A stretch of DNA of 64,000 nt from Hyphomicrobiales bacterium (GTDB lineage Bacteria > Pseudomonadota > Alphaproteobacteria > Rhizobiales > HXMU1428-3), in assembly GCA_021775425.1 (NCBI GenBank), contig JAJFHX010000036.1, positions 1 through 64,000 on the forward strand. The letters are read 5' to 3'. The notes under the pieces are model-generated. The model worked only from the letters and a program-made list of their open reading frames with translations. It made no database searches and was not told the origin of the DNA. Each line of letters opens with the position of its first letter. Within the stretch, counting starts at the first letter, position 1. The position numbers and the translations under genes were made by a program. Of the stretch, positions 39,101 to 64,000 are shown piece after piece.

Positions 39101-42100
39101 CCGTTGCAGCCGGCGAACATGTCCTCTCTGACGGAACAATCATTAAGGCAGGTACTGTTGAGGAAGACGCTGCCGGCAATAGCAATGTTGCATTTGGTGG
39201 CACAGAAACATTCTCTGGTGCTCCCATTGTGTTAACCCAGGTTTCAACAGTAAACGAAGACACAGCAATACTCACCCGCGTTCAGACAATTGATGCAAAT
39301 GGCTTTAATCTGCGCTTGTCTGAGCAGGAAGCTGGCGCTGGTGTCAATGGTGGCACACATGCGACTGAAACTGTAGGCTGGATTGCCATTGAGGCGGGCG
39401 ACGGAACACTGCTGAGCACCGGCCTGACAGGAGATGGTGTCAATCACAATACAGCAAATATTACGCATAATGGTGGCTTTGCAAACACCGTATTCATTGC
39501 CCAGATGCAAACCCGTGATGGTGGTGACCCGGCAACGGTGCGCGGTGTCAGTTTTGACGGAACAAATGCAAGCCTCTTTATTGAAGAAGAAGCCTCTGCA
39601 GATGCAGAAACCAACCACACCGGTGAAAATGTCGGCTATCTGGTGCTGCCAACAGGTGTCATCACAACACCCGGCGCACTTAATGCTGACCCGGTCAATG
39701 ATCCGCTCGCACCAGGCGAAGTAAACCCCTTCCTTGACATTGGCGGCAACTCACTTGTCATCCGCGAAGATCTGGATAATGACGGTGACAATGACCTGCT
39801 TCACTATACAGGCGGAGATCATGTCGTCCTTGGCGGCACAGAAGAAAATGACACCATCATTGGCAGCATCGGCGATGATACCCTATGGGGTGACGGCGGT
39901 GATGATAACCTTGAAGGCGGTGATGGCGGTGACATCATCCTCGGTGGTGATGGTGATGATGTGATCACTGATATCGGCGGCGTCAACAACCTGCAAGGAC
40001 AGGATGGTAATGATGCCATTTCAGCCGGTCCGGGTGAGGCGCTTATCCTTGCTGGTGCTGGTAAAGACTTTGTCTTACAAGGTGCTGATTTAGCTGAAAC
40101 ATTCGGCGGGCTTGGGGATGACTTTATCCATGCCGGAACAGAATCAAACATCCTCTTTGGTAATGAGGGCAATGACTGGCTCGAAGGCGGCGGCGGTAAT
40201 AACCTTCTGGTTGGTGACAATGGCGACCCCTTCCTTAACAGTACATCTGGCGGTCATGATGTCTTTATTTCTGGACAGGGTGATGATGATTATGACAGTG
40301 AAGGCGGCGACGACATCATGGAAGGCGCTGATGGCATTCAGCGCTTTGAAGGGCTAAACGGCTTTGACTGGGCAACATATAAAGATGTTGATCAGGGTGT
40401 GAGCGCAGATATGCTCCTTCGCGCCTTTGATGAAACACCACTACCCCCCTCAAATGTTTCCATTCAGGACAGGTTCGATTCAGTTGAAGGTCTCTCTGGT
40501 GGGCGCGGCGGTGATATTCTTCGCGGCAGTAACCAGACAGCTGTGGAAATTGCGACTATTAATAACGGCAATAACAGTGTGCTGCGGAATTTTGATCTAA
40601 TTCAGGGCTTGAGAGAAGGTGATTTTGGCGGCGCCTTTGATGGCAATACAATTTTTGATGCCGCTACAACAGAATGGGGCGAGGGTGATATCATCCTCGG
40701 CGGCGCTGGTAGTGACATTATAGAAGGCCGTGAAGGTAATGATATTATCGATGGTGACCTCAAACTGGATGTCCGCCTGCTTATTAGAGATAGTGGCGGT
40801 GCTCCAATCGCCACTGCCTTTAAAATGCTTGGTGATTTGTACGCGGTAGATGCCAATGGCACCCCCTTAACAGATATTAATGGCGATTACATCCCCGCAC
40901 CTCTCGGGCCAAATGGTGAATACGCATCTTTGAATGATGCCGTTTTCAACCGGGCTGTTAATCCTGGCAATATCGAAATTTTGAGAGAAATCATCGATGA
41001 AAGTGAAATGAGTGATTTTGATACGGCTCAGTTCTCAGATGTTTTCGCCAATTATACGATTGACCTTACACCAAATGCAGAAGGCTTTATTCGTATTCAG
41101 CATGATTCAGTCGCTGGCGCTAATGATGGCCTTGGCATTGATGGAACCGATCTGGTACGAGGCATTGAGCGTCTGCAATTCGCTGACCAGGTAATCAACC
41201 TGAGTGCAAATAATACAGTTGCAACAGGCATGCCTCAAATCGTAGATCCGGTTTCTGGGCTGCCAGTCACAACACCGGCCATCGGACAGGAAGTGCGCGC
41301 AACGCAGGGCGATATTTTTGATGCAGATGGAACTACCACATCCACCTTTGTCTATACCTGGCAAATGGAAGAATCACCAGGTGAGGGTGACTGGGTCGAT
41401 ATCATTATATTAACGGTTTCTGGTGATGACGCCCCACTTACAGGTGAAGTGGTGACATTACCTGATGAAGTGCTGGGCCTCGCCATTCGTGTGGTTGCCT
41501 CCTTCCAGGATGACGCTGGCGTCATAGAGCAGGTTGTCTCACTGCCAACTGATCTTGTTGGCAATTCGGTTGCGCCCACAGGAACAGCAGGAGCCGATAT
41601 CCTTCTTGGTACACCATTTGATGATGTCATTAATGGCGGCGCTGGCAATGATGAAATATTTGGGCTTGCCGGGAATGATGTGCTGCGCGGTCAGGCTGAT
41701 GATGACGTGATTGAAGGCGGTCTAGGTAATGACATTATCTCTGGCGGCGGCGGCCTTGATGAGCTCTTCGGTGGCGACGGTATGGATACCATAGACGGTA
41801 ATGGCGGCGCAGACCTGCTAGACGGCGGTGATGGGAATGATCTGCTGCGTGGTGGCGGCGGTGCTGACGAGCTGCTTGGCGGAGCAGGCGATGATGATCT
41901 GCGCGGAAATGCCGGTGCAGATGAGATATCTGGTGGCACTGGAAATGACGACATCCGCGGCGGTGGCGGTAATGATGAAATCCTCTGGGTCGCAGGAGAT
42001 GGCCGTGACACAGTCGATGGCGGTGGCGGCAATGCCGACGTCTTCGATATCACGGGCGATGCAGCCATAGCTGAAACCTTCCGTATTATCGCGGTAACAC

Positions 42101-45100
42101 CGCCGAACCCTGACCCGGGCCTCGGGCCAATTGCCGCTGGCACAGAAATTATCGTCACCAGAAATGACGGAAGCGGTGAAACCATCATCGCAGAGCTGCA
42201 AAGAATTGAAGAACTGGTGATAAATGGCGTCGACGTGGACGCAAATGGCGGCGCAGCAGTTGGTGATACCATCCTGGTTTCAGGTGATTTCACCAACACA
42301 AGCCTCGCCCTCAACACAATCACAATCAACGGCACCACAGGTGATGACACGGTTGATATAACGGGGCTCTCTTCAGCCCACCGCATTGTCTTCCGCACCA
42401 ATGGTGGTCAGGACATGGTCGTCGGTCAGCTTCGCGCACAAGATGTGATTGAAGTCGCACCAGGCCTTACCCCAGCTGATTATGACGCACCGGTTTATGA
42501 TAGCAACACCGGGTTATGGACCATCACTCAGACAGGTGGCGGGCATTCAATTTCATACCCCGGCACACCAACCAGTGACCAGCCAATGCTTGGGTCTTCA
42601 ACCAGCAACACAGATAATTTTGAATTCACAGTTGATGATGTCCGCGAGCTTAAAAATCTGGTCCGCGGTCTGCCATCAGAAAATCTGGATGATGACACAG
42701 CCCATGCAACAGGCATTCGTGATCTTGAGGGTACCGGCAACAATGTCGCCAATCCTGACTATGGCTCATCAGATCAGCCTTTCATCAGACTAACGGATGC
42801 CCATTACGGTGCCTATGATGTAAGCATTGGCAATTTCTCTGTCAACCCGATCTTTAACGGGCTTGATGCGAGAGAAATCAGTAACATTCTTGGTGATCAG
42901 GAAGCAGGCTTAGCCAAATCAGAAGAAGAAACAAACATCTTCTTCATGGCCTTTGGTCAGTATTTTGATCACGGTCTTGATTTCCTCCCCAAAGGGGGCA
43001 ATGGCGTGCTTGAAATCGGCACAGGGGCCGAAGCGGGCTTTGCAGACTTAACCCGCGGGTCAGTGCATGGCTTTGACGAAAACGGCGTGCCGGAACACCT
43101 CAATAAAGCTTCGCCATTTGTTGATCAGAACCAGGCCTATGGCTCCAATGAACTGGTTGGCCAGTTCCTGCGTGAAAGCATTAAACTGAGCCCAACGGAT
43201 GATCACGGCGTCGCTGGTGCAAGATTGTTTGCCGGCATACCAGACCCGTCGAACCCAGCATTCAATCTCTTGCCATCTATGCGCGAGCTGATCCAGCACC
43301 ATTGGGAAATGGACACCATGTTTGTCCATGAAACACTTCCCGGTGGTCAGATGTCATTCCGTGAATATTTCACAGATTGGCCTTATGCAGACGCAAATGC
43401 ACCGGGCGGCGTGGCAGTTGGCACACTGGTTGATGAGTTTGGTGTCATCAACGAAGCCATGATTCCGGCCTTTAACGGTGACTTCATGGGCAGCGGCTAC
43501 ATTCTGGTTGGTGATGCCAATCCGTTTATTAATCTGCTTGACCACTATGTGGCTGGTGATTTGCGGGCAAATGAAAATTATACCCTCACATCAATCCACA
43601 CCATCTGGGCCCGCAACCACAACTACCATGTTGAAAAACTATTGGATGCCGGTTTTGATGGAACTGCAGAAGAACTGTTCCAGGCCGCAAAAATTGTCAA
43701 CGAAGTTGAATATCAGCGCGTTGTCTTTGATGAGTTCGCAGATGTTCTGCTCGGCGGTTTGAAAGGCAGTGGCCAGCACGGCTTTGATGACTACAACCCT
43801 GATGTTGACGCCCGCATCTCGCATGAATTTGCAGGCGCGGCTTACCGCTTCGGCCATTCACTGATCAGTCAGACCATTGAAATCATAGATGAAAACGGTC
43901 AGGTAAAAGAAGTGTCACTTGTCGATGTGTTCCTCAACCCGACAAATGACGCCGAAGCCTTCACAGCACCTCTGCCTCCAGGGTATGTACCACAACCAGG
44001 TTATGAGCAGATTGGTGTTGATCCTGTAATCGCAGGTATCACCAACCAGCAATCAGAAGAGGTTGACTTTAACCTCGTAGATGCGGTTCGCAACGACCTG
44101 GTCGCCATTCGGGCTGATCTGTTTGCCTTTAACGTCTCTCGTGGCTGGGATCTTGGCCTTGGTACCTTAAACCAGATCCGCGCTGACCTTCTGGCGTCTG
44201 AAGATCCTTACGTGAAGGAAGCCGTTGACCGTGTTGGTGAAGACCTTGATCCATACACGTCATGGGAAGATTTCCAAGAGCGTAATGAACTGAGTGATGC
44301 TGTCATCGCGCAGTTTATGGCAGCCTATCCTGATCTGGTCCTCAACACACCAGAAGAGATTGCAGAATTTGTTGCAGCCAATCCGAACATCCAGCTAACA
44401 GGTGCCAATAACAATATCGTTAAAGGTATCGACAGAGTTGACTTCTGGGTCGGTGGTCTTGCTGAAGAACATGTCAACGGCGGTGTCGTTGGCTCCACCT
44501 TCTGGGTTGTGCTGCATGAGCAGTTTGACCGTCTTCAGGAAGGTGACCGGTTCTATTATCTTGATCGTGCTGATGAATTTGACTTCTACGACTTCGCAAG
44601 AGATGAAGGCTTTGCCGGTATTATTGAGCGCAACACAGGCCTTGAAGGCCTTCCGGAAGATATCTTTGAAGTCAATGGAGACGGTGCCAACGATAATGAC
44701 AACGATGATGATGACGACACAGATGATGATGACAACGACAATGGGAATAATACCGGTGAGTTTATCTATACTGATGATGACGTAGCCGAGTTGCTCAATC
44801 TGGTTCGTGGTCTGCCTTCAGAAAATCTGGATGATGACACAGCCCATGCCACAGGCATTCGTGACCTTGAAGGCACCGGCAACAATGTCGCCAATCCTGA
44901 TTTTGGCTCATCAGATCAGCCATTCATCCGGTTAACGGATGCCCATTACGGTGAATTTAACTCAAGTATAAACAACTTTGACATCAACCCGATTTTTGAC
45001 GGGCTGGATGCAAGAGAAATAAGCAACATCCTTGGCGATCAGGAAGAAGGCTTAGAGAAGTCAGAACAACAGACAAGCATCTTCTTCATGGCCTTTGGTC

Positions 45101-47835: not shown

Positions 47836-47846
47836 GGCTAAACCAA

Positions 47847-47882
47847 TGTGGCCCCTTTACAATAATTGTTAAAGGGGCCACA
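47847..47882 (+). terminator. hairpin between the giant RTX gene and its secretion genes
   Basis: A 13-bp perfect GC-containing stem (TGTGGCCCCTTTA / TAAAGGGGCCACA, arms 47847-47859 and 47870-47882) begins 12 bases after the stop. Only a short, interrupted T-rich stretch follows, so partial termination (attenuation) is likely. That would keep the exporter genes expressed at a lower level than the substrate. Confidence 0.7.
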
Positions 47883-47948
47883 ATAAGCCTTTGTTAAGCA
47901 TACTTGGTCTGGAGATCGTTATTAGTAATTAGATCATGGGGTAATCGG

Positions 47949-49694
47949 ATGCCGAATGTTAAGAGTAAAGGCACCAATGGGGATAAAACACCAATTAATG
48001 TGATGGGTGGGATGAAGGGAATTATCTTATTCCTGTTTATCTTGTCTGGTGTTGTCAATGTGCTGGCACTGACAGGTGCCATCTATATGCTTCAAATCTA
48101 TGATCGGGCATTAACCAGCCAGAGCATTCCCACATTGCTCGCGCTTTCCTTTTTAGCCATTGGTCTCTATTTATTTCAGGGCACACTTGATGTCGTTAGG
48201 TCTCAGATTCTTGTTCGTCTGGGCGCTAAATTTGATGAAGGCCTCGCCCCTCTCACCCATAAAGTCACCATCGACATGCCCCGTTTCGGTTTTTCACTCG
48301 CTGAAGCCAAAGAGCGCAGCCGCGATGTGGATACAGTCCGCTCATTTATGTCCGGTCAGGGGCCGCAGGCCTTGTTTGATCTACCCTGGATGCCGCTTTA
48401 TATTGCGTTCATCTATTTTCTCCATCCCCTGCTTGGCACCATCACCATCCTCGGTGCCATTGTACTGGCCACCCTCACCATCATCACAGAAATACTGACC
48501 AAAAAACACGCCCAGGAAGCGAACCAGTCTGAAGTTCATCGCGCAAATATTGCCAATGCGCACACAAACAATTCAGACATCATCAGAGCGATGGGGATTT
48601 CAGAACGAGCCGTTAAAAGATTTGAAGAAATTAATGACAGACACCTGAAAATTCACACCAGACTAAATGACATTTCCGGCACCTTAACAGGCCTTTCCAA
48701 AGTTCTCCGCATGATGTTGCAATCAGCTGTGCTGGGCTTGGGGGCTTATCTTACAATTCAGGGGCATTTAACCGCCGGTGCAATTATCGCCGCATCAGTC
48801 GCAGCCGCAAGAGCTCTTGCCCCGGTTGATCTGGCCATCAGCCAGTGGAAAAGCCTTGTCATCGCCCGCCGCAGCTACGCCCGCCTGAAAGAAACCCTCG
48901 CCGCGATGGATGATGATACTCAAATGGTGGAATTACCAGCCCCTGCTTCATCCGTCCAGATTGAAAATATCACAGTCGCAGCACCCGGCAGCGGGGCAGT
49001 TGTCCTTTCAGATATGAGCCTTTCCTTAAACAGTGGACAGGCCCTTGGTCTGGTCGGTGCAACAGGCGGTGGTAAATCAACATTTGCAAAAGCCGTCACT
49101 GGTGTCTGGCCATTGGTGCGCGGTACAGTCAGATTTGACAATGCCGATATCAAACAGTGGCGCCCCGAAGAACTTGGCAGGCATATGGGCTATCTGCCGC
49201 AGGATGTCTCACTGATGGATGGCACAATTTCAGAAAATATCTGCCGGTTTGACCCTGAACCATCGAGTGAAAAAATTATCGCAGCCGCAAAAGCCGCTGG
49301 CGTGCATGAGCTTATCGTCAGATTGCCAAATGGCTATCAGACCGAACTCGGTCCAAATGGCATGTCACTTTCAGGCGGCCAGAGGCAGCGCATTGGTCTT
49401 GCCCGCGCGCTTTATGATGAACCGTTTTTAATTGTCCTTGATGAGCCAAATTCCAACCTTGATCTGGAAGGCGATCAGGCCCTCACCAATGCAATTAATT
49501 CGGTCAAACAAAGAGGTGGCATTGTCATTGTGATCGCCCACCGCCCAAGCGCGATATCCGCCTGTGACACGGTTGGAATTATCAAACAGGGTCAGCTGGT
49601 AGCCCTTGGTCCGAAAGATGAGATTTTAGAAGATTTAACCCGCCAGAGTTTGAAGCCGGTCGCCAAATCAGAACCGCAAAAACAGGCAGGTTAA
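47949..49694 (+). CDS. type I secretion system ATPase/permease (PrtD family)
   Basis: This inner-membrane ABC exporter would move the RTX proteins out of the cell. It has 581 residues from ATG 47949; the TTG start at 47904 of the long ORF has no support. Six membrane helices occupy about 15-300. The ATPase domain has Walker A GATGGGKST, signature LSGGQRQRIGLARAL, Walker B FLIVLDEPNSNLD and switch His in IAHRPSA. There is no N-terminal C39-like domain, which places it with PrtD/LipB-type exporters. It starts 114 bases after the giant gene. The outer-membrane TolC partner is not in the window. Confidence 0.95.
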   Translation: MPNVKSKGTNGDKTPINVMGGMKGIILFLFILSGVVNVLALTGAIYMLQIYDRALTSQSIPTLLALSFLAIGLYLFQGTLDVVRSQILVRLGAKFDEGLAPLTHKVTIDMPRFGFSLAEAKERSRDVDTVRSFMSGQGPQALFDLPWMPLYIAFIYFLHPLLGTITILGAIVLATLTIITEILTKKHAQEANQSEVHRANIANAHTNNSDIIRAMGISERAVKRFEEINDRHLKIHTRLNDISGTLTGLSKVLRMMLQSAVLGLGAYLTIQGHLTAGAIIAASVAAARALAPVDLAISQWKSLVIARRSYARLKETLAAMDDDTQMVELPAPASSVQIENITVAAPGSGAVVLSDMSLSLNSGQALGLVGATGGGKSTFAKAVTGVWPLVRGTVRFDNADIKQWRPEELGRHMGYLPQDVSLMDGTISENICRFDPEPSSEKIIAAAKAAGVHELIVRLPNGYQTELGPNGMSLSGGQRQRIGLARALYDEPFLIVLDEPNSNLDLEGDQALTNAINSVKQRGGIVIVIAHRPSAISACDTVGIIKQGQLVALGPKDEILEDLTRQSLKPVAKSEPQKQAG

Positions 49695-49741
49695 TAAAGC
49701 CAGCAATAAAGATTATTAACAGTAAGAACAGGTCGTAAGCC

Positions 49742-51691
49742 ATGAGGCAGATTGAAACCATCAGAGAGGATCAGATTGGCCCCGATGGTAAGCCTTTGCG
49801 TAAATATGAATTTATTGACGGGCAAACTGGCGCGACAGGTCTGAAATTCGCGATAGGTCTTGTAATTGTCAATGTCGTTCTTGTCTTTAAAGACTTGTTT
49901 TTTTCGGCTTCTAAAGCGGATGATAAAAATAATCTGAATAACGGAAACGATGAACAACAACAAAAAGAAATCATCACCCAAAAAGCGGCAGCCCTGCCAG
50001 AACTGGTTCAGGAAACAGAGACAAAAGAAAAGAATGAAGTGCCGTCAGACGTTACCAGTTCCGGTTCTTCCAAACGCTACTTTGCCGGTAAAACTGAAAG
50101 CCTGTTTGATGAAGCTCCAAAAAATTCAGGCACGGCCTATAGTTTTGAGCAGAAATTAAATACAGGCTCTCACGCAACCAGCAACCCGTTTGAAAACGTC
50201 ATTCAATTCCCCGGTGTTTTCCGCGTCACCCCGCTTAATTCTGGCCCGGATTTAGGAGGAGGAGCCGGATCATCAGGCCCTGTCAATCAGAACAACAACT
50301 CTGAAGATGATGATACGACCAGCGATGACACAGCCGAGCGCAACAGACTGCCCATGCTGAACGGCGCGGTTGTCTTTTCATCGCTCTACGTGAACCAGTC
50401 AATCATTTTGGCTGAAGCTGATTTTCTCCGCGGGGCCTATGATCTGGATGAAGACGCCCTTGCGATCAATAATCTGATCGCCAGTAGAGGGACAATCGAA
50501 GAGCTTGAAGACGGAAAATGGCAATTTATCCCGGACCCTTATGATCTGACAGACATCACGTTTCATTATGAAATCTCAGACGGAACAGGCGCAGTCCAGC
50601 AGATTGCTCATCTGTCATACACAGAACTGCCCGGCGGGGATTTTGTCGGCACTGAAGAAAATGACGTCATCGTCGGCAGTGGAGGCAGAGATAAAATTGA
50701 AGGCCTGAGCGGTAATGATACCATCCTCTCACGAGAAGCAGCCGACCTTATTGACGCTGGCCCGGGGGATGATCGCATAGTCGCCGGAGAGGGTGATGAT
50801 GTCATATACGCTGGCTTGGGCAATGATGTTGTATTTGGCGGCACGGGTAACGATCTGATTTTTGGCGGCGCAGGTGATGACGTCCTGATGGGGGAAGAGG
50901 GCGATGATGAGATTTTTGGTGATGCGGGCAATGATCAGATCTTCGGTGGCATAGGAAATGATAAAGCGCTTGGCGGCCTGGATAATGATAAACTTGAAGG
51001 CAATGAGGGCAACGATTTTCTCGATGGAGAACAGGGCGCCGATGAAATTTCAGGCGGCAGCGGAAATGACATTCTGATCGGTGGCACAGGTGATGACAAT
51101 GTCAAAGGTGATAGCGGAGATGATCTCTTCATAGCTCTCAGCAATGATGGAGATGACCATTATGATGGCGGCGACGATGTCGACACTTTAGACCTGAGCG
51201 CCATAACATCAGATACTGACATTAACCTGGCGACTGGCACCGCAAGCGGTGCGGAAATTGGCACAGATGAAGTGCTTAATTTTGAAAATGTCGTGGCTGG
51301 TCGTGGCAATGATACAATCACCGCCAATGAAAACGTCAATTCCCTTTGGGGTAATTTCGGTGAGGACATTTTTGTGTTTCTCTCTGGCAATAACAGCGGC
51401 AAGGGAAGTGGGCATAGAGATCGTATTGAAGATTTTGAAGTAGGTGACAAAATCGATATTTCACTGATGGATGGAAATCAGGGTGAAGACGGATTGCAAA
51501 GATTGAGCTTCAAATATGATCAGGCCGAATTCGATGGCGTCGGCCAGGTGCTCTATAAATATGAGAATAATGACACAACTGAATTCACTCTGCTGCGTTT
51601 TAAATATGATGAAGATGATCTCGACGAAGCCGATTTTGAAATAGAAATCACCGGCAGACATGTCTTTACAGAAGACAACCTCATCACCTGA
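49742..51691 (+). CDS. RTX repeat protein with N-terminal membrane helix
   Basis: The 649-residue protein has an N-terminal cytoplasmic stretch (1-37) and one hydrophobic helix (about 38-57, FAIGLVIVNVVLVFKDLFF) with no obvious cleavage site. A polar linker (60-200) and a cadherin/Ig-like segment (about 205-300, FIPDPYDLTDITFHYEISDG) follow. A long RTX array covers about 303-487, and the final region resembles other RTX C termini (IEDFEVGDKIDISLMDG). The RTX C terminus suggests type I secretion, while the membrane helix suggests anchoring. Both together are unusual. It sits between the ATPase (47 bases) and the adaptor (40 bases), so it is made with the exporter. Confidence 0.85.
   Translation: MRQIETIREDQIGPDGKPLRKYEFIDGQTGATGLKFAIGLVIVNVVLVFKDLFFSASKADDKNNLNNGNDEQQQKEIITQKAAALPELVQETETKEKNEVPSDVTSSGSSKRYFAGKTESLFDEAPKNSGTAYSFEQKLNTGSHATSNPFENVIQFPGVFRVTPLNSGPDLGGGAGSSGPVNQNNNSEDDDTTSDDTAERNRLPMLNGAVVFSSLYVNQSIILAEADFLRGAYDLDEDALAINNLIASRGTIEELEDGKWQFIPDPYDLTDITFHYEISDGTGAVQQIAHLSYTELPGGDFVGTEENDVIVGSGGRDKIEGLSGNDTILSREAADLIDAGPGDDRIVAGEGDDVIYAGLGNDVVFGGTGNDLIFGGAGDDVLMGEEGDDEIFGDAGNDQIFGGIGNDKALGGLDNDKLEGNEGNDFLDGEQGADEISGGSGNDILIGGTGDDNVKGDSGDDLFIALSNDGDDHYDGGDDVDTLDLSAITSDTDINLATGTASGAEIGTDEVLNFENVVAGRGNDTITANENVNSLWGNFGEDIFVFLSGNNSGKGSGHRDRIEDFEVGDKIDISLMDGNQGEDGLQRLSFKYDQAEFDGVGQVLYKYENNDTTEFTLLRFKYDEDDLDEADFEIEITGRHVFTEDNLIT
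50648..51200 (+). repeat. RTX calcium-binding nonapeptide array
   Basis: About 18 nonapeptides encoded in a row (for example GGTGNDLIFGGAGDDVLMGE) inside the membrane-helix RTX protein. It is more regular than blocks 1-3 of the giant protein. Confidence 0.9.
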
Positions 51692-51731
51692 ATACGGAAA
51701 ATAATAGTACAACCTAAAGGTCACTTAAATA

Positions 51732-53060
51732 ATGAACCAGCCGCAAAACAATAACGCAGCTACAAACCAGAAAAAGAAAAAATCTTTTTCTATTCATAAG
51801 CATGTGTTTTTCGGAATCTTCACCATGAGTGTACTGATCTTTGGCATTGGCGCATGGGCCGCAACAGCTGAACTCTCAGGCGCGGTGATTTCACAAGGAC
51901 TGATCGTTGTTGATAAAAACGTCAAAAAAGTTCAGCACCGTGATGGTGGCATCGTGTCAGTTATCAATGTGAAAAATGGCGACCGCGTCAAAGCTGGTGA
52001 CGTTTTACTGAAACTGGAAGACACACAATTAAAATCTGAGCTGGGTGTAATTCAGGCCCAATTGATAGAACTGGCCGCCCGCGGAGCCAGGTTGACAGCA
52101 GAAATCAACAGTGAAGATAAAATTGAATTTCCTGAAAATTTTGCAGCCAATGGCCCCCATGCTTTAAAAGTGATGAAAGCCGAAAAGCGCTTGCTCGATA
52201 TTTCCATCTCTCACAAAAACAGTCAGAAAGAACAACTGACTTCGCAAATAGAGCAGTTAAAAGAAGAAATCACCGGCATCATTTCCCAAAGGGATTCCAA
52301 ACAAAACCAGCTGAAGCTGATCAAAAAAGAGCTAAAGCAGATCAAATTTCTGCATGATAAAAAATTGACCTCCATCACCAGAGTTTATTCTCTCGAGCGT
52401 GAAGAAAAACGGCTTGATGGTGAATATGGCGGCCTGGTGTCCCAAATCGCCAGAACCAAGGGCAAAATCAGTGAAATCAAAATGCAGATTTTATCCATCG
52501 ATGAAGGCGCACGCCTGCAAGCACATAAAGACCTGCGCGCTTCAGAGGCAAGAATAGCTGAGCTCGAAGAAAGAAAAATCGCAGCGATTGATCGTTTAAG
52601 CAGAACAGAATTAATCGCACCGCAGCCCGGCATTGTGCATGAATTGACAGTCCACACAATTGGCGGCGTTATTACCTCAGCTGAAACGGTGCTGGTAATC
52701 GTGCCGGTACATGAAAATATGAAAATTGAAGCCAAAATCAACACAACCGATATCGACCAGGTCTTTGTTGGCAGAGACGCAAAATTACGCTTCTCAGCAT
52801 TCAGCCAGCAATCCACACCTGAATTGGACGGAAGAGTAATTCAGGTTTCAGCCGATGCATCAACAGACCCGAAAACAGCACAACCCTATTATCTCGCAGA
52901 AATTGAGGTCAAGCCGGAATCCAAATCACAGTTGAAAAATCTCAGTCTTGTCCCCGGCATGCCGGTTGAAATATTTATTTCAACCGGAGAGCGTACAGCT
53001 CTCTCATATTTGACAAAACCGATAAGAGATCAACTGCAACGTGCGTTCCGGGAAGAATGA
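51732..53060 (+). CDS. type I secretion membrane fusion protein (HlyD/PrtE family)
   Basis: The 442-residue adaptor links the ABC exporter to the outer-membrane channel. It has a short cytoplasmic N terminus (1-24), a membrane helix (about 25-47, FFGIFTMSVLIFGIGAWAA), a lipoyl half-motif GLIVVDKNVKKVQHRDGGIV, and a long coiled coil (about 130-290). The second lipoyl half (ELIAPQPGIVHELTVHTIGG) and the beta-barrel region with the C-terminal LVPGMPVEIFISTGERT complete it. It is the last of the three exporter-operon genes. Confidence 0.94.
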   Translation: MNQPQNNNAATNQKKKKSFSIHKHVFFGIFTMSVLIFGIGAWAATAELSGAVISQGLIVVDKNVKKVQHRDGGIVSVINVKNGDRVKAGDVLLKLEDTQLKSELGVIQAQLIELAARGARLTAEINSEDKIEFPENFAANGPHALKVMKAEKRLLDISISHKNSQKEQLTSQIEQLKEEITGIISQRDSKQNQLKLIKKELKQIKFLHDKKLTSITRVYSLEREEKRLDGEYGGLVSQIARTKGKISEIKMQILSIDEGARLQAHKDLRASEARIAELEERKIAAIDRLSRTELIAPQPGIVHELTVHTIGGVITSAETVLVIVPVHENMKIEAKINTTDIDQVFVGRDAKLRFSAFSQQSTPELDGRVIQVSADASTDPKTAQPYYLAEIEVKPESKSQLKNLSLVPGMPVEIFISTGERTALSYLTKPIRDQLQRAFREE

Positions 53061-56186: not shown

Positions 56187-56969
56187 ATGAAACGACTAAA
56201 ATGCTTAAAAGCACTGACTTTAATGTTATGTGCATTCATCTACATAAATTCTTCCACCACACCAGCTTTAGCAGAAGATCCTTCTGACGCTTACGTATTC
56301 CCGTTTGCCTCTGTCTCTGGCACAGAAGTTTTCAAAGATAATTACGAAAGCTATGTCGGCGGATATGTTGCCTTGAATGGTGATCTGGATAAGAACGGCC
56401 TCATCCTGCGGCTTCTGTTTTCATATGGTGAGTATGATTTTCATGATGGGACAAATGCCATCGACGCAGATTATAGACAAGGCGATATCATGCTTGGTTA
56501 CCAGGTCATTCGCGACGATGTGAATTATAGCTTGCTTGTCGGTATTGATTATGAAAAACACGATCTCACCCCAGACTCGCCAAACTTTAAATTACGCGGG
56601 TCTGACATCGGCTTTAAAGTAGCCTGGGGGGCTGAAACTGAAAGATACAAACAGTCACCATTATACTGGGCGATCCGCGGTGATTACACCACAGCATACG
56701 ATACTTATTATTCTATCTTCCGTCTCGGCTATGATGTCGGCCGTGTAGTCATTGGTCCTGAAGGCTGGGTCCTTGGTGATGAAACTGGCGATGCAGCACG
56801 GATTGGTGCCTTTGCACTTTACGATATCAACTTAGGAAATAAAGTCGGCACAATCTCTGTCTCAGGTGGTTATCAGTTTGTGGACAATGCTGATGCTATA
56901 AATGGAAACAACTTTGGTGAAGAAAGTGCATATGGAACAGTTAAGTTCACCATGGGCTTCGGGCACTAA
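56187..56969 (+). CDS. bcsS: BcsS-like outer-membrane beta-barrel protein
   Basis: The 260-residue protein has a signal peptide (1-30, cleavage near ALA). The mature part shows alternating polar/hydrophobic strands typical of a small barrel and ends in a C-terminal aromatic-type strand (YGTVKFTMGFGH). The pattern YVALNGDLDKNGLILRLLFSYGEY, MLGYQV, LLVGIDYEKHDLTPDSPNFKLRG and GPEGWVLGD resembles alphaproteobacterial BcsS (cellulose biosynthesis). No cellulose synthase genes are in the window, so the link to cellulose is uncertain. Preceded by a palindrome and followed by a strong terminator. Confidence 0.65.
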   Translation: MKRLKCLKALTLMLCAFIYINSSTTPALAEDPSDAYVFPFASVSGTEVFKDNYESYVGGYVALNGDLDKNGLILRLLFSYGEYDFHDGTNAIDADYRQGDIMLGYQVIRDDVNYSLLVGIDYEKHDLTPDSPNFKLRGSDIGFKVAWGAETERYKQSPLYWAIRGDYTTAYDTYYSIFRLGYDVGRVVIGPEGWVLGDETGDAARIGAFALYDINLGNKVGTISVSGGYQFVDNADAINGNNFGEESAYGTVKFTMGFGH

Positions 56970-57016
56970 TTTTTCTGCCATCTGATATACTGATAACCGG
57001 ACAGAATATCTAAAAT

Positions 57017-57052
57017 AAAATGGGCCGCTCTTTGATAAGAGCGACCCATTTT
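57017..57052. terminator. bidirectional intrinsic terminator
   Basis: A 16-bp stem with one C-A mismatch (arms 57017-57032 and 57037-57052) around TGGG.CGCTCTT, loop TGAT, flanked by A- and T-tracts. It separates the BcsS-like gene (+) from the small gene ending at 57106 (-). Confidence 0.85.
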
Positions 57053-57105
57053 ATAATTTTGGATTAGCCACAAATTACTTTGATTGCTAACACGTTAAGT
57101 TAGGT

Positions 57106-57312
57106 CTAGTGCTGAGTGAAGCTCTCTGATTTAGAACGGACAGGCTCAGAACAAGTATCACTAAGCACGTCTTCAACGCTCACCTCTTCCAGAGAGAAAC
57201 CAAAGTCCTTAATCAACTTATGATCGTAGTGGGAAAGCTGCGGCTGCCAGCCTTTCACGATCCATCCTCTTTTAACATCACCAAGTTGGTCTTTAAGTAC
57301 AAACGCTTTCAT
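57106..57312 (-). CDS. 68-residue protein, unknown function
   Basis: ATG 57312 has AAGG 8 bases upstream; a GTG at 57318 also fits the frame. The product starts MKAFVLKDQLGDVKRGWIVKG, looks like a small beta-rich domain, and has an acidic tail (SVEDVLSDTCSEPVRS) with one Cys. No membrane segment or signal. It follows the VOC-fold gene after 23 bases on the same strand and is probably co-transcribed. No family recognised. Confidence 0.6.
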   Translation of the reverse strand: MKAFVLKDQLGDVKRGWIVKGWQPQLSHYDHKLIKDFGFSLEEVSVEDVLSDTCSEPVRSKSESFTQH

Positions 57313-57335
57313 AATCACGGCCTTTTCATATCTGT

Positions 57336-57971
57336 TTAATTACGAATGCTAGATTTGCAATCATCAGTACCGGCCGGCTTAACCACACCAAAAGTATTCT
57401 GGTTAGGGTCACGGATAATCGCAATCTGGTGCCCACCAGCTATTTCAAATGGCCTTTGCAAGATTGTGCCGCCCGCTTTTTCTGCAGCCTCTACCGCATC
57501 TCTGACATTCTCAACCTGAAAATAAATCAGCCAGCCTTTACTTTTGATTGTCTGATTATCAAGTTGAGTTTCATTCATCATCCCGGCAACTTCCTGATCA
57601 CCAGACATAAAAATAGTATACTTATCGTCTTCTGAAACAGGCGTACTGTTCAGTTCATTCAGGCCGACGAACTTGCTTTTCCAGCCGAAAACATTGGCAT
57701 AAAATTTCCCAATCGCAGCTGGTTCAGGGGCCAGCAATTCATTCCACCAGATAGAGCCAACAACAGGGCATTCCGAGTTGGAGGTTGTAAGCTTGGTGTT
57801 GGTCGAAATTTCAGCGGCTTGAACTGAACTGCTTACAACTGGTGAACTAATCACAACAGCCAGAGCCACAGCAGCCCCCGCTATCACTTTAAGGTGGTCA
57901 GACCAGCTTGAGTTGAATTGGAAATTGAATTCAGGACGGACAAAGAATCCGTTAAATGATTTCTTTGACAT
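57336..57971 (-). CDS. exported VOC-fold (glyoxalase/bleomycin-resistance-like) protein
   Basis: The 211-residue protein has a long positively charged N terminus followed by a hydrophobic segment (about 30-53, VIAGAAVALAVVISSPVVSS) and AxA (VQAAE), which looks like a signal peptide or anchor. The VOC domain occupies about 70-205: SIWWNELLAPEPAAIGKFYA, WLIYFQVENVRDAVEAAE and GGTILQRPFEIAGGHQIAII. VOC proteins of this type are usually cytosolic, so export is unusual. Metal-ligand His/Glu positions are incomplete, so no enzyme activity is assigned. ATG 57971 has GGGAG 6 bases upstream; the longer ORF start lacks support. Confidence 0.8.
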   Translation of the reverse strand: MSKKSFNGFFVRPEFNFQFNSSWSDHLKVIAGAAVALAVVISSPVVSSSVQAAEISTNTKLTTSNSECPVVGSIWWNELLAPEPAAIGKFYANVFGWKSKFVGLNELNSTPVSEDDKYTIFMSGDQEVAGMMNETQLDNQTIKSKGWLIYFQVENVRDAVEAAEKAGGTILQRPFEIAGGHQIAIIRDPNQNTFGVVKPAGTDDCKSSIRN

Positions 57972-58276
57972 TTTGTTCTCCCACAAATAGCAAAAAACAT
58001 AAGTTGAATATTTGATTGTCGTTATTTGCACTTAATAATACAGGGAGCTGATTTGACTGAAAAATCATATCAAACATTAAGGTTACTTGTAGACATTAAT
58101 GGAGCTCTTATGAAAACTTGCTATAAAAATTCACCCTCAATTGGCTGAGAATTTCTTCCGTTGAATACGAGCTATGAATTAATTAAATGATTTGTGTTTT
58201 AATCTGCAAAAACCAGCCTGCATCAGGTTCTGGAAAAACAGAGATTTAACAACTCAAATGAAAAAGGATTGGGTTC
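57972..58276. other. intergenic region between divergent genes
   Basis: 305 AT-rich bases. It must hold the promoters of the VOC-fold gene (-) and the hydrolase gene (+). No ORF, clear hairpin or repeat was seen. Confidence 0.5.
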
Positions 58277-59272
58277 TTGAATGTTTTAAGCAGAAAACAA
58301 TTGGTCTGTTTTCTTCTCGTTGCTCTCATAGCAGCATTTAGCAGTATTGTTTGTTACTCCAATTCACATGATAAAACCTATACAGTTGAAGACGTTGTCT
58401 TCAACACCAATGTCGTGCCGGATACAACCAATGACAAACCTCTCGATGTAAAGTCGAAACTTTATCTGCCTCGAAACCGGAAAGACCCGGTATCCGCCGT
58501 TATCATATCCCCATCAAGTGGCGGAGTTGAAAAAGAAAGAGAACTCTATTACGCCAGAAATCTTGCTAAATCCGGCATTGCCGTATTGATAGTAGATAGT
58601 TTTAAATCACGCGGCTTAACCAATTCCGTCTATGATCAAAGTGTCCTCGAGACCTGGCAAATGGTGAATGACGCGATTGGTGGCTTAAAGTTTCTAAGTA
58701 AAGACAACCGTATAAACAGCAAGAAAATCGGCATCATGGGCGTCTCAAAAGGCGGGTCAGTCGCCATGGATACAGCTCATACTATTGTTGGCAGATGGGC
58801 AGGTGTAATAGGCATCAGGTTCGCTGCTCACATCGCCATCTCGCCTGATTGTAACTGGACCTTCCGTTCAAACAAAACAACAGGCGCACCGATATATTTT
58901 ATGCTGGCAGAGCTGGATGATCAGACACTGGTCAGCGCCTGCGTTAATAAGGCCAAAAGGTTGAGTGAAGCTGGCAATAAGTTCGTGAAAACCACAATCT
59001 ATAAAGGCGCTCACCATGCATGGGAAGAACTGGGCAAAGAACCGGAATTTGATTCGAATGTCGAGAATTTCTCGGAGTGCCGCGTCTGGGTTGAAAATAA
59101 TGGCAAAATGAGATCAGCAGATACCAACGAAATCATTGATGATGAGGACTGGTATGGCTGGGCATCTGAGAACTGCAAAAAATTAGGCGCGACATGCTGC
59201 GGCGGCACCAGAGAACAAAAACAAAAAGCCATGCAGGATATAATTACGTTTCTTAGATGGTATGACTTTTAA
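58277..59272 (+). CDS. exported alpha/beta hydrolase, dienelactone hydrolase-like
   Basis: The 331-residue protein has an N-terminal hydrophobic signal (about 8-27, LVCFLLVALIAAFSSIV). The hydrolase fold covers about 50-325: SSGGVEKERELYYARNLAKS, nucleophile Ser in GVSKGGSVA, acid candidate in LAELDDQTL and His in GAHHAWE. DLH family members have Cys rather than Ser, so it is closer to the Ser-type members. Its substrate is unknown. The start is TTG at 58277 with AGGA 8 bases upstream, because no ATG lies in a better position. Several Cys in the C-terminal part (CRVW, NCKKLG, TCCGG) suggest periplasmic disulfides. Confidence 0.8.
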   Translation: MNVLSRKQLVCFLLVALIAAFSSIVCYSNSHDKTYTVEDVVFNTNVVPDTTNDKPLDVKSKLYLPRNRKDPVSAVIISPSSGGVEKERELYYARNLAKSGIAVLIVDSFKSRGLTNSVYDQSVLETWQMVNDAIGGLKFLSKDNRINSKKIGIMGVSKGGSVAMDTAHTIVGRWAGVIGIRFAAHIAISPDCNWTFRSNKTTGAPIYFMLAELDDQTLVSACVNKAKRLSEAGNKFVKTTIYKGAHHAWEELGKEPEFDSNVENFSECRVWVENNGKMRSADTNEIIDDEDWYGWASENCKKLGATCCGGTREQKQKAMQDIITFLRWYDF

Positions 59273-59387: not shown

Positions 59388-60698
59388 TTATTCAGCAGCA
59401 AGCCGCATTAAATTCCCCAAGCCAAGTTCGGCAAGAATAGCCTCATGCCCCCCAGGTTTCAGCCATTCCTTTTGAATGTCAGCTGTAAGCGAGCGAAGCG
59501 GGTCAAAATAATAATAAGTTTTTAAAGGGTCGATACACGGTGATCGATAACCGATAATTCCATATTCCTCATTTTGATACTCAAAGCTATGCACATCTCG
59601 TTTGCCACCACCACCAGGCGCATCCACCACAAATAACGGCGTATTAAATCCAGCCGTCGCTCCGCGAATTTCACGTTCCAGATATTGAATTTCCTGAACC
59701 GGTACTCTGAAATGCTCGATGCTCTTGACCATATCGCAGGCATAAACATAATAAGGCTGGATGTTAACCCGCCCCAGTTTTTTATTGAGTTTAATAAGTG
59801 TTCCCGGGTCATCATTCACACCCCGAAGCAACACGGTCTGATTGCGAACATAAATGCCTTCAGCATGTAAACGGCGCATCGCTAGTTCCACTAGCGGCGT
59901 CACTTCATTCGGGTGGTTAAAGTGGCTGTGAATATAAACATTTTTAAAGAGCGCCCGGCCATAATTAGCGACATCAACAATGGTGCGGAACCAGTTCTCA
60001 TCAGAAAAGAATTTCATCGGTTGAACTGATAGGGCTTTCGTCGCAAAACGGATGCGACGCACATGCTCAATGTCAAGCAATGCCGTGCCGATTTTTTTAA
60101 TCATGGCGGGTTTCAAGCGGGCAATATCACCACCAGAAACCACGACATCTTCAATGACAGGGTGTGAGCGGATATATTCAATCGCATCATCCCAGTATTT
60201 CGGGCTGGAAACATTGTCCTTTTTAACCGTTTCTGTGTCCTGTCCAACCGCATAACTTCTGGTACAGAACTGACAATAAACCGGACAAACCGAAGTCACC
60301 AGAAACAAAACTTTATCAGGGTATCTGTGCACCAGGTTGGGAACCGGCGATGTTTCACGTTCACCAAGCGAGTCAATTGTCATCGCTGGGTGGTCCGGCT
60401 CAATTTCAGAGAGCATAGGTAGGAATTGTCGGCGGATTGGGTCGGTTTCAAAACGATCCCATTCGATCATTTCCATAATATAAGGGTTGATACGAACCGA
60501 CATACCAACCTTCTTCAGCCCTTCTTTCACCTCCGTGAGAGTTGAAGGTTTGAGAAAAGAACCTGCAATCATTTCTAGCTGGTTCACATTATTGACCGAA
60601 GATCTGTCCTGCCATTTATGGTTTAGGAAATCAGACCGGGCAATTGTTTCATATGGACTTGATGACTTTCCAAAATGGAACAAATTCGTTTCAGCCAT
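59388..60698 (-). CDS. kamA: lysine 2,3-aminomutase (radical SAM, PLP)
   Basis: This enzyme would convert L-alpha-lysine to beta-lysine (3,6-diaminohexanoate), using S-adenosylmethionine and PLP. It has 436 residues. The radical SAM cluster motif is CPVYCQFC (C138, C142, C145). The PLP lysine lies in DAPGGGGK (K366). The two acidic residues that bind the lysine side chain in the clostridial enzyme (D293 and D330) correspond by spacing to D322 and D359; glutamate aminomutases carry other residues there. This supports a lysine substrate. ATG 60698 has GGAGGTG upstream; the ORF from 60713 is less likely. Length and PGGGGK also distinguish it from EpmB. It is divergent from the peptide synthetase gene. 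Confidence 0.93.
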   Translation of the reverse strand: MAETNLFHFGKSSSPYETIARSDFLNHKWQDRSSVNNVNQLEMIAGSFLKPSTLTEVKEGLKKVGMSVRINPYIMEMIEWDRFETDPIRRQFLPMLSEIEPDHPAMTIDSLGERETSPVPNLVHRYPDKVLFLVTSVCPVYCQFCTRSYAVGQDTETVKKDNVSSPKYWDDAIEYIRSHPVIEDVVVSGGDIARLKPAMIKKIGTALLDIEHVRRIRFATKALSVQPMKFFSDENWFRTIVDVANYGRALFKNVYIHSHFNHPNEVTPLVELAMRRLHAEGIYVRNQTVLLRGVNDDPGTLIKLNKKLGRVNIQPYYVYACDMVKSIEHFRVPVQEIQYLEREIRGATAGFNTPLFVVDAPGGGGKRDVHSFEYQNEEYGIIGYRSPCIDPLKTYYYFDPLRSLTADIQKEWLKPGGHEAILAELGLGNLMRLAAE

Positions 60699-60951
60699 GA
60701 TACACCTCCGCACTATTTATTAATTTATAGTTACAGAGGCGCAATTGATGTGCCGCAGAGGGTCAGTTTCTATCGTGAATACTTATTAACCTTAACATTC
60801 GTCAATCTTTACGAAGAAAAGCACTCGTGAATACTGTGGCATGAGCATTGCTTCTCACTGACCAACAAAGACGAATTGCGGCGAACTGCATGCGCGAACT
60901 TATTTTGAATTTCCGCGCAAGTTCGTTAGAATTTTAAGGCACTGAGAAAAC
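60699..60951. promoter_or_regulatory. divergent promoter region kamA / Pls-like gene, with repeats
   Basis: 253 bases between the two start codons. GCGAACT occurs twice in the same direction (60881-60887 and 60894-60900), 13 bases apart. CGAACTT (60895-60901) is also mirrored by AAGTTCG (60919-60925). This could be a shared operator, close to the synthetase start. No ORF is present. Confidence 0.45.
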
Positions 60952-63900
60952 ATGTTTCGACAAAAAAATATCACACCCGCTACCAGTGAACGGTGCGGCG
61001 AAGGGCAAAACCTTCTTTCGAAAAACAGTGCCGAGAGAACTTCACCTAAACAATCAGCACTTTATGCTGCCTTGCCAGCGGCACAGCGTTCCACACTAAG
61101 TGAACGACTGGAAGCTCTGGAATGGCATCATCATCAGGAAAAAGCAGGCCGCACTCAATCAGATCTTACCCCAACGTGCCTACATGAAATATTTGAACAA
61201 AGTGCCGCAAAAACACCGCTGAAAATTGCTCTGGAGTGCGCAGAACGCCGCTGGAGCTATGCAGAAGTAGATGCTGTAGCAAATCGCCTGGCTCGGTTTA
61301 TAAGGCAAAAAGGCGTCATCAAAGATACTTTCGTTGGCCTCACACTTACCCGTTCAGAATGGCCGATCATTTCTATTCTCGCAATCCTCAAGGCCGGGGC
61401 AGCCTATGTCCCGCTAGAGCCCTCCATGCCGACGGATCGGAAAAGATACATCGCCGAAGAAGTCGGCTTTAAACTGATCCTGACAGACAGCGAAAATCTG
61501 GAATCTGTCCGGCAGTACACCAGTGGCGACATCGCCGTACTGGAGGAGTTTGAGAGCAATAAATTTACATATGAAACGAAGTCGCTACCACAGGATCACC
61601 TTTCAGCAGCGCCCAATTCAGTTTGCTACACACTGTTCACATCCGGTACAACCGGCCGCCCGAAAGGTGTCGTAACAGAACACAGAAATACCGTCCATTT
61701 TGTAAATGCCTTTAACAAAGTCTGCACAACCAACGGGAATGACAGAATTTTTCAGGGCTTTTCACTAGGTTTTGATGGCTCAGTTGAAGAAATGTGGATG
61801 GCATTTTCAAACGGAGCAACTCTGGTTTGCGGCGAACAATACACGCCGCAATTTGGCGCTGAGCTCGGCACATTTCTGGATCAGCAAAAAATCAGCTTTT
61901 TCTCAACCGTTCCAACATTGCTTTCAACCCTGCCGAATGATTTACCGCATATCCGTCAGTTGGTTGTTAGCGGTGAAGCCTGCCCGCCTGATCTGGTAAA
62001 CAGATGGGCGACAGAAGACCGGGATATGTTAAATGTCTATGGGCCAACTGAAGCCACAGTCAACACAACCGCCGGTAAATTGCAAAAAGGTAAAGACGTG
62101 ACCATCGGTCGCCCCTTGCCCGGATATGATCTTTACATTTTGGATGAGAAGTTAGCCCCAGTTGCAAAAGGTGAAAAGGGAGAACTATATATCGCCGGTT
62201 CCGGTATTTCTCGCGGTTATTTAAACCAGCAGGATTTAACTAGAAAAACTTATATCACCTGGCACAATCAGGAACTGAGCAATGCGAATGCCGCCACACC
62301 TGAACCCGGCACCCGGCTTTATAAAACCGGTGATCTGGTGAGGTGGAATGAAGAGCAGGAGCTTGAATTTTTCGGCCGTATAGACAGCCAGATCAAACTG
62401 CGCGGCTTTCGTATTGAATTGTCAGAGATCGAAGCCGTTTTACTTGAACATGAAAACATCACAGCAGCAGCTGTGAAGCTCTGTGAAGTCAATCAGTTGC
62501 AGCATTTGGCAGCCTATGTGCTGGTCAAAGATAAAACGATGAATATAGATCGCACAGACCTCCTTGCAATGATGCGCGATAAATTACCGGCTTATATGAT
62601 CCCGTCTTTCTTAGATGTGCTGGATACATTTCCAAGAGTGGCAAGCGGTAAAGTCAACATGTCACTGTTGCCAGAACCTGCGCAGCATCTTGTCAGTGAA
62701 AAACCAGCAGCCGATCAAGAGTTCACAGAACCTGAAAATGAATATGAAGCCGCCATTGCCAGCATTTGGGCCGGGCAGTTTGGTGTTGAAAGGGTCGGCC
62801 TTGATCAGAATTATTTCACAGACCTCGGCGGGCACTCACTTCTTGCCGCGCAAATGGTCACCAGCCTTTATAAAAGCCTGAACCTTAGTGTCTCTGTGCG
62901 TGATATTTATAAATTCCCAACAATTGAGAAACTAGCGGCACATTGCGGCGAGCTGGCCGAAGCTGTGTGTAAGACTGAAAACGAAAATGGTGGACGAAAA
63001 AACAGTCCAAAACAAAAATCATTAAAAGCCTGGCCCTGGTCAACGGTCATCCTTCAGATAATCTATTTCCTGATAATCGTTCCTTTGCTAACACTGCCTC
63101 TGGTATTAATCCTGCCATTGGCGATTGAGACCATGCAAAGCCAGTCGACCCCGGTCATCCTGTTGGTCTTGAGTTTCGCACTTGCCGGCGGCACATGGGC
63201 CGCCTTGCTGATTATGGCCATCGCTGCAAAATGGCTTTTAATCGGCAGATATAAGCCCGGTCGATATCCTCTATGGGGCAGTTTTTATATCAGGTGGTGG
63301 ATAGCCTCACGCCTGCAATATCTGAGCTTTATTTCAGCATTTAATGGCACACCCTTTATGTCGTTAATTCTTCGTGCCATGGGGGCAAAGGTTGGCCATC
63401 ATTGCTGGCTTAACCCAAGTGTGATCTATGCCTGGGATTGTATCACGATTGGTGATCATGTCAGCATCGGCAAAGACACCCAGATGCCTTGCCTCAGAGT
63501 AGAAGACGGACACATGATCGTCGGCAGCCTTACAATCGGTGACAGATGTTTTGTCGGTAATCATTCATCACTTGGTTTAAACGCTGAAATGGAAGATGAC
63601 GCGCGACTGGACGATCAGTCTCTATTGCCGGATGATTTTAAAGCCACGAAAGCCTGCCAATATAGAGGGTCTCCACCTGAAAAAAGTCAGGTACCTGCGC
63701 CAGATGGCGAGATGCTCGTGCCGGGGCATTTCAAACTGGCCCTGTTTGGCTTCCTGCAAACCATCTCCGCAACAATCGTCACTGCCGTGACCCTCGCCCC
63801 TCTGGCACTGGCGACCTGGTTTGTCTCAATTCTGGTGCTGCATTATTCAGCCATGATATCGATCACGGCTTTTGTCATTTCAGTACCGCTGACACTATTC

Positions 63901-64000
63901 ATTTTCACATTCTGGTCAGCTCTGTGTAAAAAACTAGTCCACCCAAACCCGAAACCCGGTGTTTACCAGCTCTATTCGATGGAATATCTGCGCCACTGGC
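60952..64000 (+). CDS. Pls/PosA-type non-ribosomal peptide synthetase (partial, runs off the window)
   Basis: The first 1016 residues are visible. An adenylation domain (about 80-590) has SGTTGRPKG, YGPTE, KTGDLVRW and KLRGFRIE-type motifs. A thiolation domain has phosphopantetheine Ser in DLGGHSLLAAQ (about S629). The membrane part begins near 694, with several helices and a left-handed beta-helix-like segment (ITIGDHVSIGKD, LTIGDRCFVGNHSSLG). This order is that of epsilon-poly-lysine synthetase (Pls) and PosA, which polymerise a cationic amino acid across the membrane. The hand-aligned pocket code begins D-G-E-S; lysine pockets such as that of bacitracin synthetase have D-A-E-S. With kamA opposite, beta-lysine is a plausible substrate. 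No release domain is visible so far. Confidence 0.88.
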   Translation, partial: MFRQKNITPATSERCGEGQNLLSKNSAERTSPKQSALYAALPAAQRSTLSERLEALEWHHHQEKAGRTQSDLTPTCLHEIFEQSAAKTPLKIALECAERRWSYAEVDAVANRLARFIRQKGVIKDTFVGLTLTRSEWPIISILAILKAGAAYVPLEPSMPTDRKRYIAEEVGFKLILTDSENLESVRQYTSGDIAVLEEFESNKFTYETKSLPQDHLSAAPNSVCYTLFTSGTTGRPKGVVTEHRNTVHFVNAFNKVCTTNGNDRIFQGFSLGFDGSVEEMWMAFSNGATLVCGEQYTPQFGAELGTFLDQQKISFFSTVPTLLSTLPNDLPHIRQLVVSGEACPPDLVNRWATEDRDMLNVYGPTEATVNTTAGKLQKGKDVTIGRPLPGYDLYILDEKLAPVAKGEKGELYIAGSGISRGYLNQQDLTRKTYITWHNQELSNANAATPEPGTRLYKTGDLVRWNEEQELEFFGRIDSQIKLRGFRIELSEIEAVLLEHENITAAAVKLCEVNQLQHLAAYVLVKDKTMNIDRTDLLAMMRDKLPAYMIPSFLDVLDTFPRVASGKVNMSLLPEPAQHLVSEKPAADQEFTEPENEYEAAIASIWAGQFGVERVGLDQNYFTDLGGHSLLAAQMVTSLYKSLNLSVSVRDIYKFPTIEKLAAHCGELAEAVCKTENENGGRKNSPKQKSLKAWPWSTVILQIIYFLIIVPLLTLPLVLILPLAIETMQSQSTPVILLVLSFALAGGTWAALLIMAIAAKWLLIGRYKPGRYPLWGSFYIRWWIASRLQYLSFISAFNGTPFMSLILRAMGAKVGHHCWLNPSVIYAWDCITIGDHVSIGKDTQMPCLRVEDGHMIVGSLTIGDRCFVGNHSSLGLNAEMEDDARLDDQSLLPDDFKATKACQYRGSPPEKSQVPAPDGEMLVPGHFKLALFGFLQTISATIVTAVTLAPLALATWFVSILVLHYSAMISITAFVISVPLTLFIFTFWSALCKKLVHPNPKPGVYQLYSMEYLRHW

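Follow-up and report, generated by a model that had tools for sequence, protein, structure and literature searches.

A kamA–pls gene pair that probably specifies epsilon-poly-beta-lysine in Alphaproteobacteria and Planctomycetes

The adjoining kamA and pls genes of a Hyphomicrobiales bacterium very probably constitute a two-gene pathway for epsilon-poly-beta-lysine, as judged from sequence comparison. The kamA gene encodes a KamA-family aminomutase, and pls encodes a synthetase of the Pls/PosA type. The sequence-only reading of this DNA had proposed that KamA supplies beta-lysine to a polymerising Pls-type synthetase. That proposal is well supported by the pocket code of the synthetase, the recurring pairing of the two genes, and the absence of alternative partners. 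The same reading had taken a beta-lysine polymer to be undescribed for Pls-type enzymes, which is wrong. Epsilon-poly-L-beta-lysine and its synthetase were reportedly described in 2022 from the soil actinomycete Streptoalloteichus hindustanus NBRC 15115; it was a kamA gene next to the gene of a Pls that led to the synthetase (Yamanaka et al., ACS Chem Biol 17:171-180, pmid 34886659; PMC10522769, PMC9606270). A Methylomarinum enzyme with the same code as the beta-lysine synthetase is listed in PMC10522769, so a presence outside actinomycetes was already hinted at. A search of the open-access literature found no report of the kamA–pls pair in Alphaproteobacteria or Planctomycetes. The polymer chemistry is thus already known; new are the spread of the pair to these two groups, four matched loci, and candidate companion hydrolases.

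The DNA analysed (the window) makes up the first 64 kb of a contig of 91.9 kb, in a genome of 3.2 Mb. The genome is 94% complete, which makes absences in it good, not final, evidence. Genes kamA and pls are both intact and stand back to back, 253 bp apart. Promoter consensus matches between them were no more than expected by chance. The GC content of the kamA–pls stretch falls inside the range of the window, so that composition gives no sign of recent transfer. The features of the locus are as follows.

58277..59272, + strand: DLH-family alpha/beta hydrolase gene adjoining kamA; conserved in genome G220 with 56% identity
59293..59332: terminator-like stem-loop of 18 pairs between the convergent kamA and DLH-family genes (consensus match only)
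59388..60698, - strand: kamA, KamA-family radical SAM/PLP aminomutase, probable lysine 2,3-aminomutase, 436 aa (TIGR00238, 2A5H alignment)
60699..60951: intergenic region between the divergent kamA and pls
60952..64000, + strand: pls, N-terminal 1016 of 1391 aa, continuing to window-equivalent 65127 (contig C30, L002:1952-6127)
61180..62679, + strand: adenylation domain of pls, aa 77-576 (PF00501 and PF13193), with pocket residues at aa 275, 276, 279, 318, 338, 340, 362, 370, 371 and 567
62752..62943, + strand: carrier (PP-binding) domain of pls, aa 601-664, GGHS at 626, Ser629 (PF00550)
63052..64000, + strand: start of the membrane-embedded terminal region of pls, aa 701 onward (TIGR02353 aa 701-1385, hydrophobic segments)

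The kamA reading frame is intact at nt 59388-60713 of the minus strand and open to a GTG at 60713. A Shine-Dalgarno-like GGAGG precedes the ATG at codon 6, so the gene likely starts at 60698 and yields 436 residues. The alignment with clostridial lysine 2,3-aminomutase 2A5H bears out the earlier statement that KamA keeps D322, D359 and the PLP and cluster motifs. KamA has the cluster cysteines (CPVYCQFC), the PLP lysine and the two aspartates that bind lysine; D322, D359 and K366, counted from the ATG, are D327, D364 and K371 in the numbering of the reading frame. The same six residues are retained in every KamA homolog checked, including generic ones of 30–40% identity, and are thus non-discriminating for lysine. 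D322 and D359 were accordingly rejected as a sign of lysine specificity.

KamA resembles the clostridial enzyme in its catalytic and substrate-contact residues, yet the detected similarity stops at residue 374 and the last ~67 residues are unmatched. It passes the KamA-family model TIGR00238 with 230.2 bits against a cut-off of 199.2. A further difference from the clostridial enzyme is that KamA falls below the AblA equivalog cut-off (TIGR03820; 271.2 against 525.4 bits). It also lies below that of EpmB (TIGR03821; 178.7 against 369.3 bits). No second KamA-family gene was found in the source genome. By sequence, KamA probably converts L-lysine to beta-lysine.

The full synthetase frame, nt 60952-65127 on the plus strand, encodes 1391 residues, the remainder having been recovered from contig C30 beyond the window. 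The earlier estimate that only a third to half of it was visible was too low, as the window holds 73% of the protein. The full protein passes the NCBIfam Pls/PosA model TIGR02353 (543.2 against 423.1 bits) over model positions 2-694 of 695. By Pfam it has one adenylation and one carrier domain before the membrane region, without a condensation or thioesterase domain. Its hydrophobic segments form three clusters, at residues 693-760, 929-993 and 1179-1241. This result, with the pocket alignment below, confirms the claimed divergent Pls/PosA-type synthetase with a D-G-E-S pocket start.

In the proposed pathway, KamA would shift the alpha-amino group of lysine to C3 by radical SAM/PLP chemistry, giving beta-lysine. 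Asp275 and Glu279 would contact the two amino groups of beta-lysine as the adenylation domain of Pls activates it, and the carrier domain would receive the activated unit. Units would then be linked via the side-chain amine by the membrane-embedded terminal region, giving a cationic isopeptide homopolymer. What we infer in this scheme is that KamA acts on lysine and that beta-lysine is the monomer, together with the epsilon linkage, the length of the chains and a surface or antimicrobial role.

Activation of the carrier domain in trans probably falls to a PPTase-family protein encoded on contig C49 of the source genome. That gene (L078 6434-7261, + strand) lies beside a second, distant Pls (L078 557-4624, - strand) and could serve the carrier domain of pls. 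The pocket of the second Pls reads DFECLSVVTK; like DAB/DAP enzymes, it has Phe at position 2. By its gene content, the source genome may make two cationic polymers.

The ten specificity positions were read for all Pls by alignment to the window protein. The pocket positions were set from the GrsA numbering. The window synthetase reads DGESVSVVNK in this alignment. As a calibration, PosA of Acinetobacter was read the same way and gave DMEHNGTVSK, exactly its published code. The epsilon-poly-L-beta-lysine synthetase of S. hindustanus has the code DGESISVVNK (PMC10522769). The two codes are identical at 9 of 10 positions, the beta-lysine criterion being a single characterised enzyme compared by its published code. 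The one change is conservative, Val for Ile at the fifth position, a residue that makes no substrate contact in PosA structures (PMC10522769). The actinomycete and window systems share a kamA beside a Pls-type gene and nearly the whole pocket code, and they differ in this one residue and in the alphaproteobacterial host of the window pair.

Position 2 of the pocket has been tied to substrate length, with Phe in DAP/DAB, Met in ornithine and Ala in lysine enzymes, and Gly in the beta-lysine enzyme (PMC10522769). Positions 2, 6, 7 or 9 set the window code apart from those of the alpha-lysine-like, ornithine and DAB/DAP-like types, and it fits the beta-lysine enzyme instead. It had been suggested that the Asp235 position often shifts in beta-specific pockets; the equivalent residue here is not shifted, and is the same as in the published beta-lysine code.

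Characterised relatives show the same distinction. The epsilon-poly-L-lysine synthetase Pls of Streptomyces (PDB 7WEW) shares the adenylation domain, carrier domain and membrane terminal region. A Streptomyces Pls reads DAESIGTVVK, however, and no aminomutase is needed. The delta-poly-L-ornithine synthetase PosA of Acinetobacter baumannii (PMC10522769) has the same domain plan, and the Asp and Glu that contact the substrate amino groups. It differs in the pocket, DMEHNGTVSK, and is 32% identical to the window synthetase.

The recurrence of the pair was examined in 297 genomes of the order, searched for KamA and the Pls terminal region, and in a scan of GTDB genomes. Close KamA relatives (66% identity) occur in 2 other genomes of the order, G220 and G002, which belong to two other families. 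In both, a Pls gene stands beside the close kamA, divergent as in the window. The GTDB scan gave one further pair, in a Planctomycetaceae MAG, where kamA and pls run in the same direction and overlap. The planctomycete kamA carries an in-frame TGA (L004 1915-1917) where its relatives have tryptophan, which points either to a disrupted gene or to an error in the sequencing of the MAG. With three other genomes carrying it, the pairing is not unique to the source genome. At all four loci, in two phyla, kamA adjoins a Pls with the exact code DGESVSVVNK. No further close KamA was found in 385 class-level and 299 phylum-level genomes, and the seq­uences of 7 same-genus genomes in the sample gave no KamA or Pls match at the thresholds used.

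The Pls terminal region is present in 45 of the 297 genomes, and 34 Pls of the order have readable pocket codes. Three of them read DGESVSVVNK, and these are the three beside a close KamA. The other 31 read DAESVGTVVK, DMEHNGTVTK, DLED(I/L/V)G(S/T)VVK, DFEALGTVTK or DFECLSVVTK, and none has a close kamA beside it. A match of 3/3 against 0/31 would arise by chance about once in 6000 if relatedness is ignored.

None of the 27 generic KamA loci examined in the order has a Pls within 1.5 kb. In some f24 genomes (G069, G136, G209), a generic KamA gene and a Pls with another type of pocket lie within a few kb of each other. This second pairing was judged a coincidence of neighbourhood, because the KamA is of the generic 30–33% type, the Pls pocket is DFEALGTVTK, and a transposase-like ORF lies between the genes in G136. 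In G209, a PPTase-like ORF stands beside the Pls with the DFEALGTVTK pocket.

KamA relatives of 43–50% identity also occur without a Pls beside them in the stretch read. A kamA gene alone was therefore rejected as a marker of the polymer pathway, because such relatives are carried by plasmids of Rhizobium, Sinorhizobium and Klebsiella and by five genomes of Planctomycetota. The Rhizobium and Sinorhizobium genes (L038, L039, L040; 44–50%) lie among transposase, aminotransferase and other genes. On a conjugative plasmid of Klebsiella pneumoniae (L041 8013-11909), a KamA-family gene (43%) adjoins genes for a class I tRNA-ligase-like protein and an MFS transporter; this locus looks like a different, possibly undescribed pathway.

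The four Pls with DGESVSVVNK fall into a single clade (SH-aLRT 99), and the DAESVGTVVK clade is sister to it. The three sister-clade genomes (G030, G139, G190; L047-L049) gave no KamA match at E 1e-40. With their alpha-lysine-like pocket code, they are possible producers of epsilon-poly-L-lysine outside actinomycetes. In the KamA tree, the three alphaproteobacterial partners cluster, and the planctomycete partner joins planctomycete KamAs (93/93). One KamA clade for all four partners was not rejected by the AU test (p = 0.106). Repeated recruitment of the KamA partner is a possibility.

A block of genes is common to the window and G220, a member of another family. It comprises BcsS-like, glyoxalase-like and DLH-like hydrolase genes (the three at window 56187-59272), kamA and pls, with identities of 39, 43, 56, 67 and 58%, respectively; the outer flanks differ. 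A C45-family (AAT, PF03417) hydrolase gene lies near kamA–pls in 3 of the 4 loci, those of G220, G002 and the Planctomycetaceae MAG, and was not found in the source genome. The C45 genes are at the following positions.

L036 7525-8541: C45-family hydrolase gene
L037 3256-4296: C45-family hydrolase gene
L004 7076-8080: C45-family hydrolase gene

Among the members of the C45 family are enzymes that act on beta-aminoacyl amides, for instance carcinine, and cleave them. A role of this Ntn-type hydrolase in cleaving the polymer is thus no more than a reasonable guess. A fuller history can be drawn only tentatively, and we regard it as doubtful: the beta-lysine pocket might have arisen once from an alpha-lysine-like Pls, the aminomutase might have been recruited more than once, and the C45 hydrolase might be a dedicated poly-beta-lysine hydrolase or protection enzyme.

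The downstream aldehyde dehydrogenase and DUF779 genes were rejected as pathway genes, the former being an ExaC-type acetaldehyde dehydrogenase equivalog. At window 36130-53060, a 3901-aa ORF precedes a 596-aa ORF and the genes of an RTX-repeat protein and an HlyD-type membrane-fusion protein; the region looks like a type I secretion locus.

Three other explanations of the pair can be weighed against the poly-beta-lysine pathway. Pls might make an ordinary alpha-diamino acid homopolymer (epsilon-poly-L-lysine, delta-poly-L-ornithine, poly-DAB or poly-DAP) with kamA as an unrelated neighbour. Most characterised members of the family do use alpha-amino acids (PMC10522769), and the DGES clade is sister to one with an alpha-lysine-like code. 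However, the pocket departs from each of the alpha-amino acid codes as described above, and kamA adjoins all four Pls with DGESVSVVNK, whereas the other 31 Pls of the order have no close relative of it next to them. We hold this explanation to be very unlikely. Still less likely is that the pair makes short beta-lysine chains on another molecule and no free homopolymer, in the manner of the streptothricin stand-alone adenylation enzymes, which build 1–7-mers of beta-lysine on an acceptor (PMC9606270). Conserved hydrolase genes beside the pair (C45 family at three loci, DLH family at two) would be in keeping with it. Against it, the complete Pls/PosA terminal region is present, characterised enzymes with that region make homopolymers (PMC10522769), and acceptor-building genes are not adjacent to the pair.

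The least likely explanation is that kamA is next to pls by chance and serves formation of the osmolyte N-acetyl-beta-lysine, modification of EF-P or degradation of lysine. Its basis is the five Planctomycetota KamA relatives that have no Pls in the stretch read (one contig being only 3.3 kb), at least one of which adjoins an AblB above cut-off and degradation-type genes. In the source genome, AblB was not found with controls working, and no EpmA exceeded the cut-off. These results weaken the osmolyte and EF-P readings, as does the low EpmB score of KamA. No lysine-degradation gene occurs among the neighbours on the contig; kamA was found with neither osmolyte nor degradation genes, and the same pairing in three other genomes speaks against chance. 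The planctomycete gene beside AblB belongs to the same wider clade as KamA, which suggests that lysine is the substrate of KamA and that some members of this wider group are lysine 2,3-aminomutases.

The poly-beta-lysine pathway is thus the reading that we prefer, although the AblA score below cut-off, the KamA relatives that lack a Pls and the small number of paired loci (four) weigh against it. The polymer of the kamA–pls pair is probably cationic and antimicrobial. Antimicrobial activity is known for related cationic isopeptides, and one of them, epsilon-poly-lysine, is approved for preserving food (PMC8117764). The four loci offer a small natural set on the shift from an alpha- to a beta-lysine pocket, with Ala to Gly at position 2 and changes at positions 6, 7 and 9. 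The two kinds of conserved hydrolase neighbour, C45 and DLH, are candidate polymer-cleaving enzymes. Together, the pocket code and the recurring pair predict epsilon-poly-beta-lysine in Alphaproteobacteria and Planctomycetes too.
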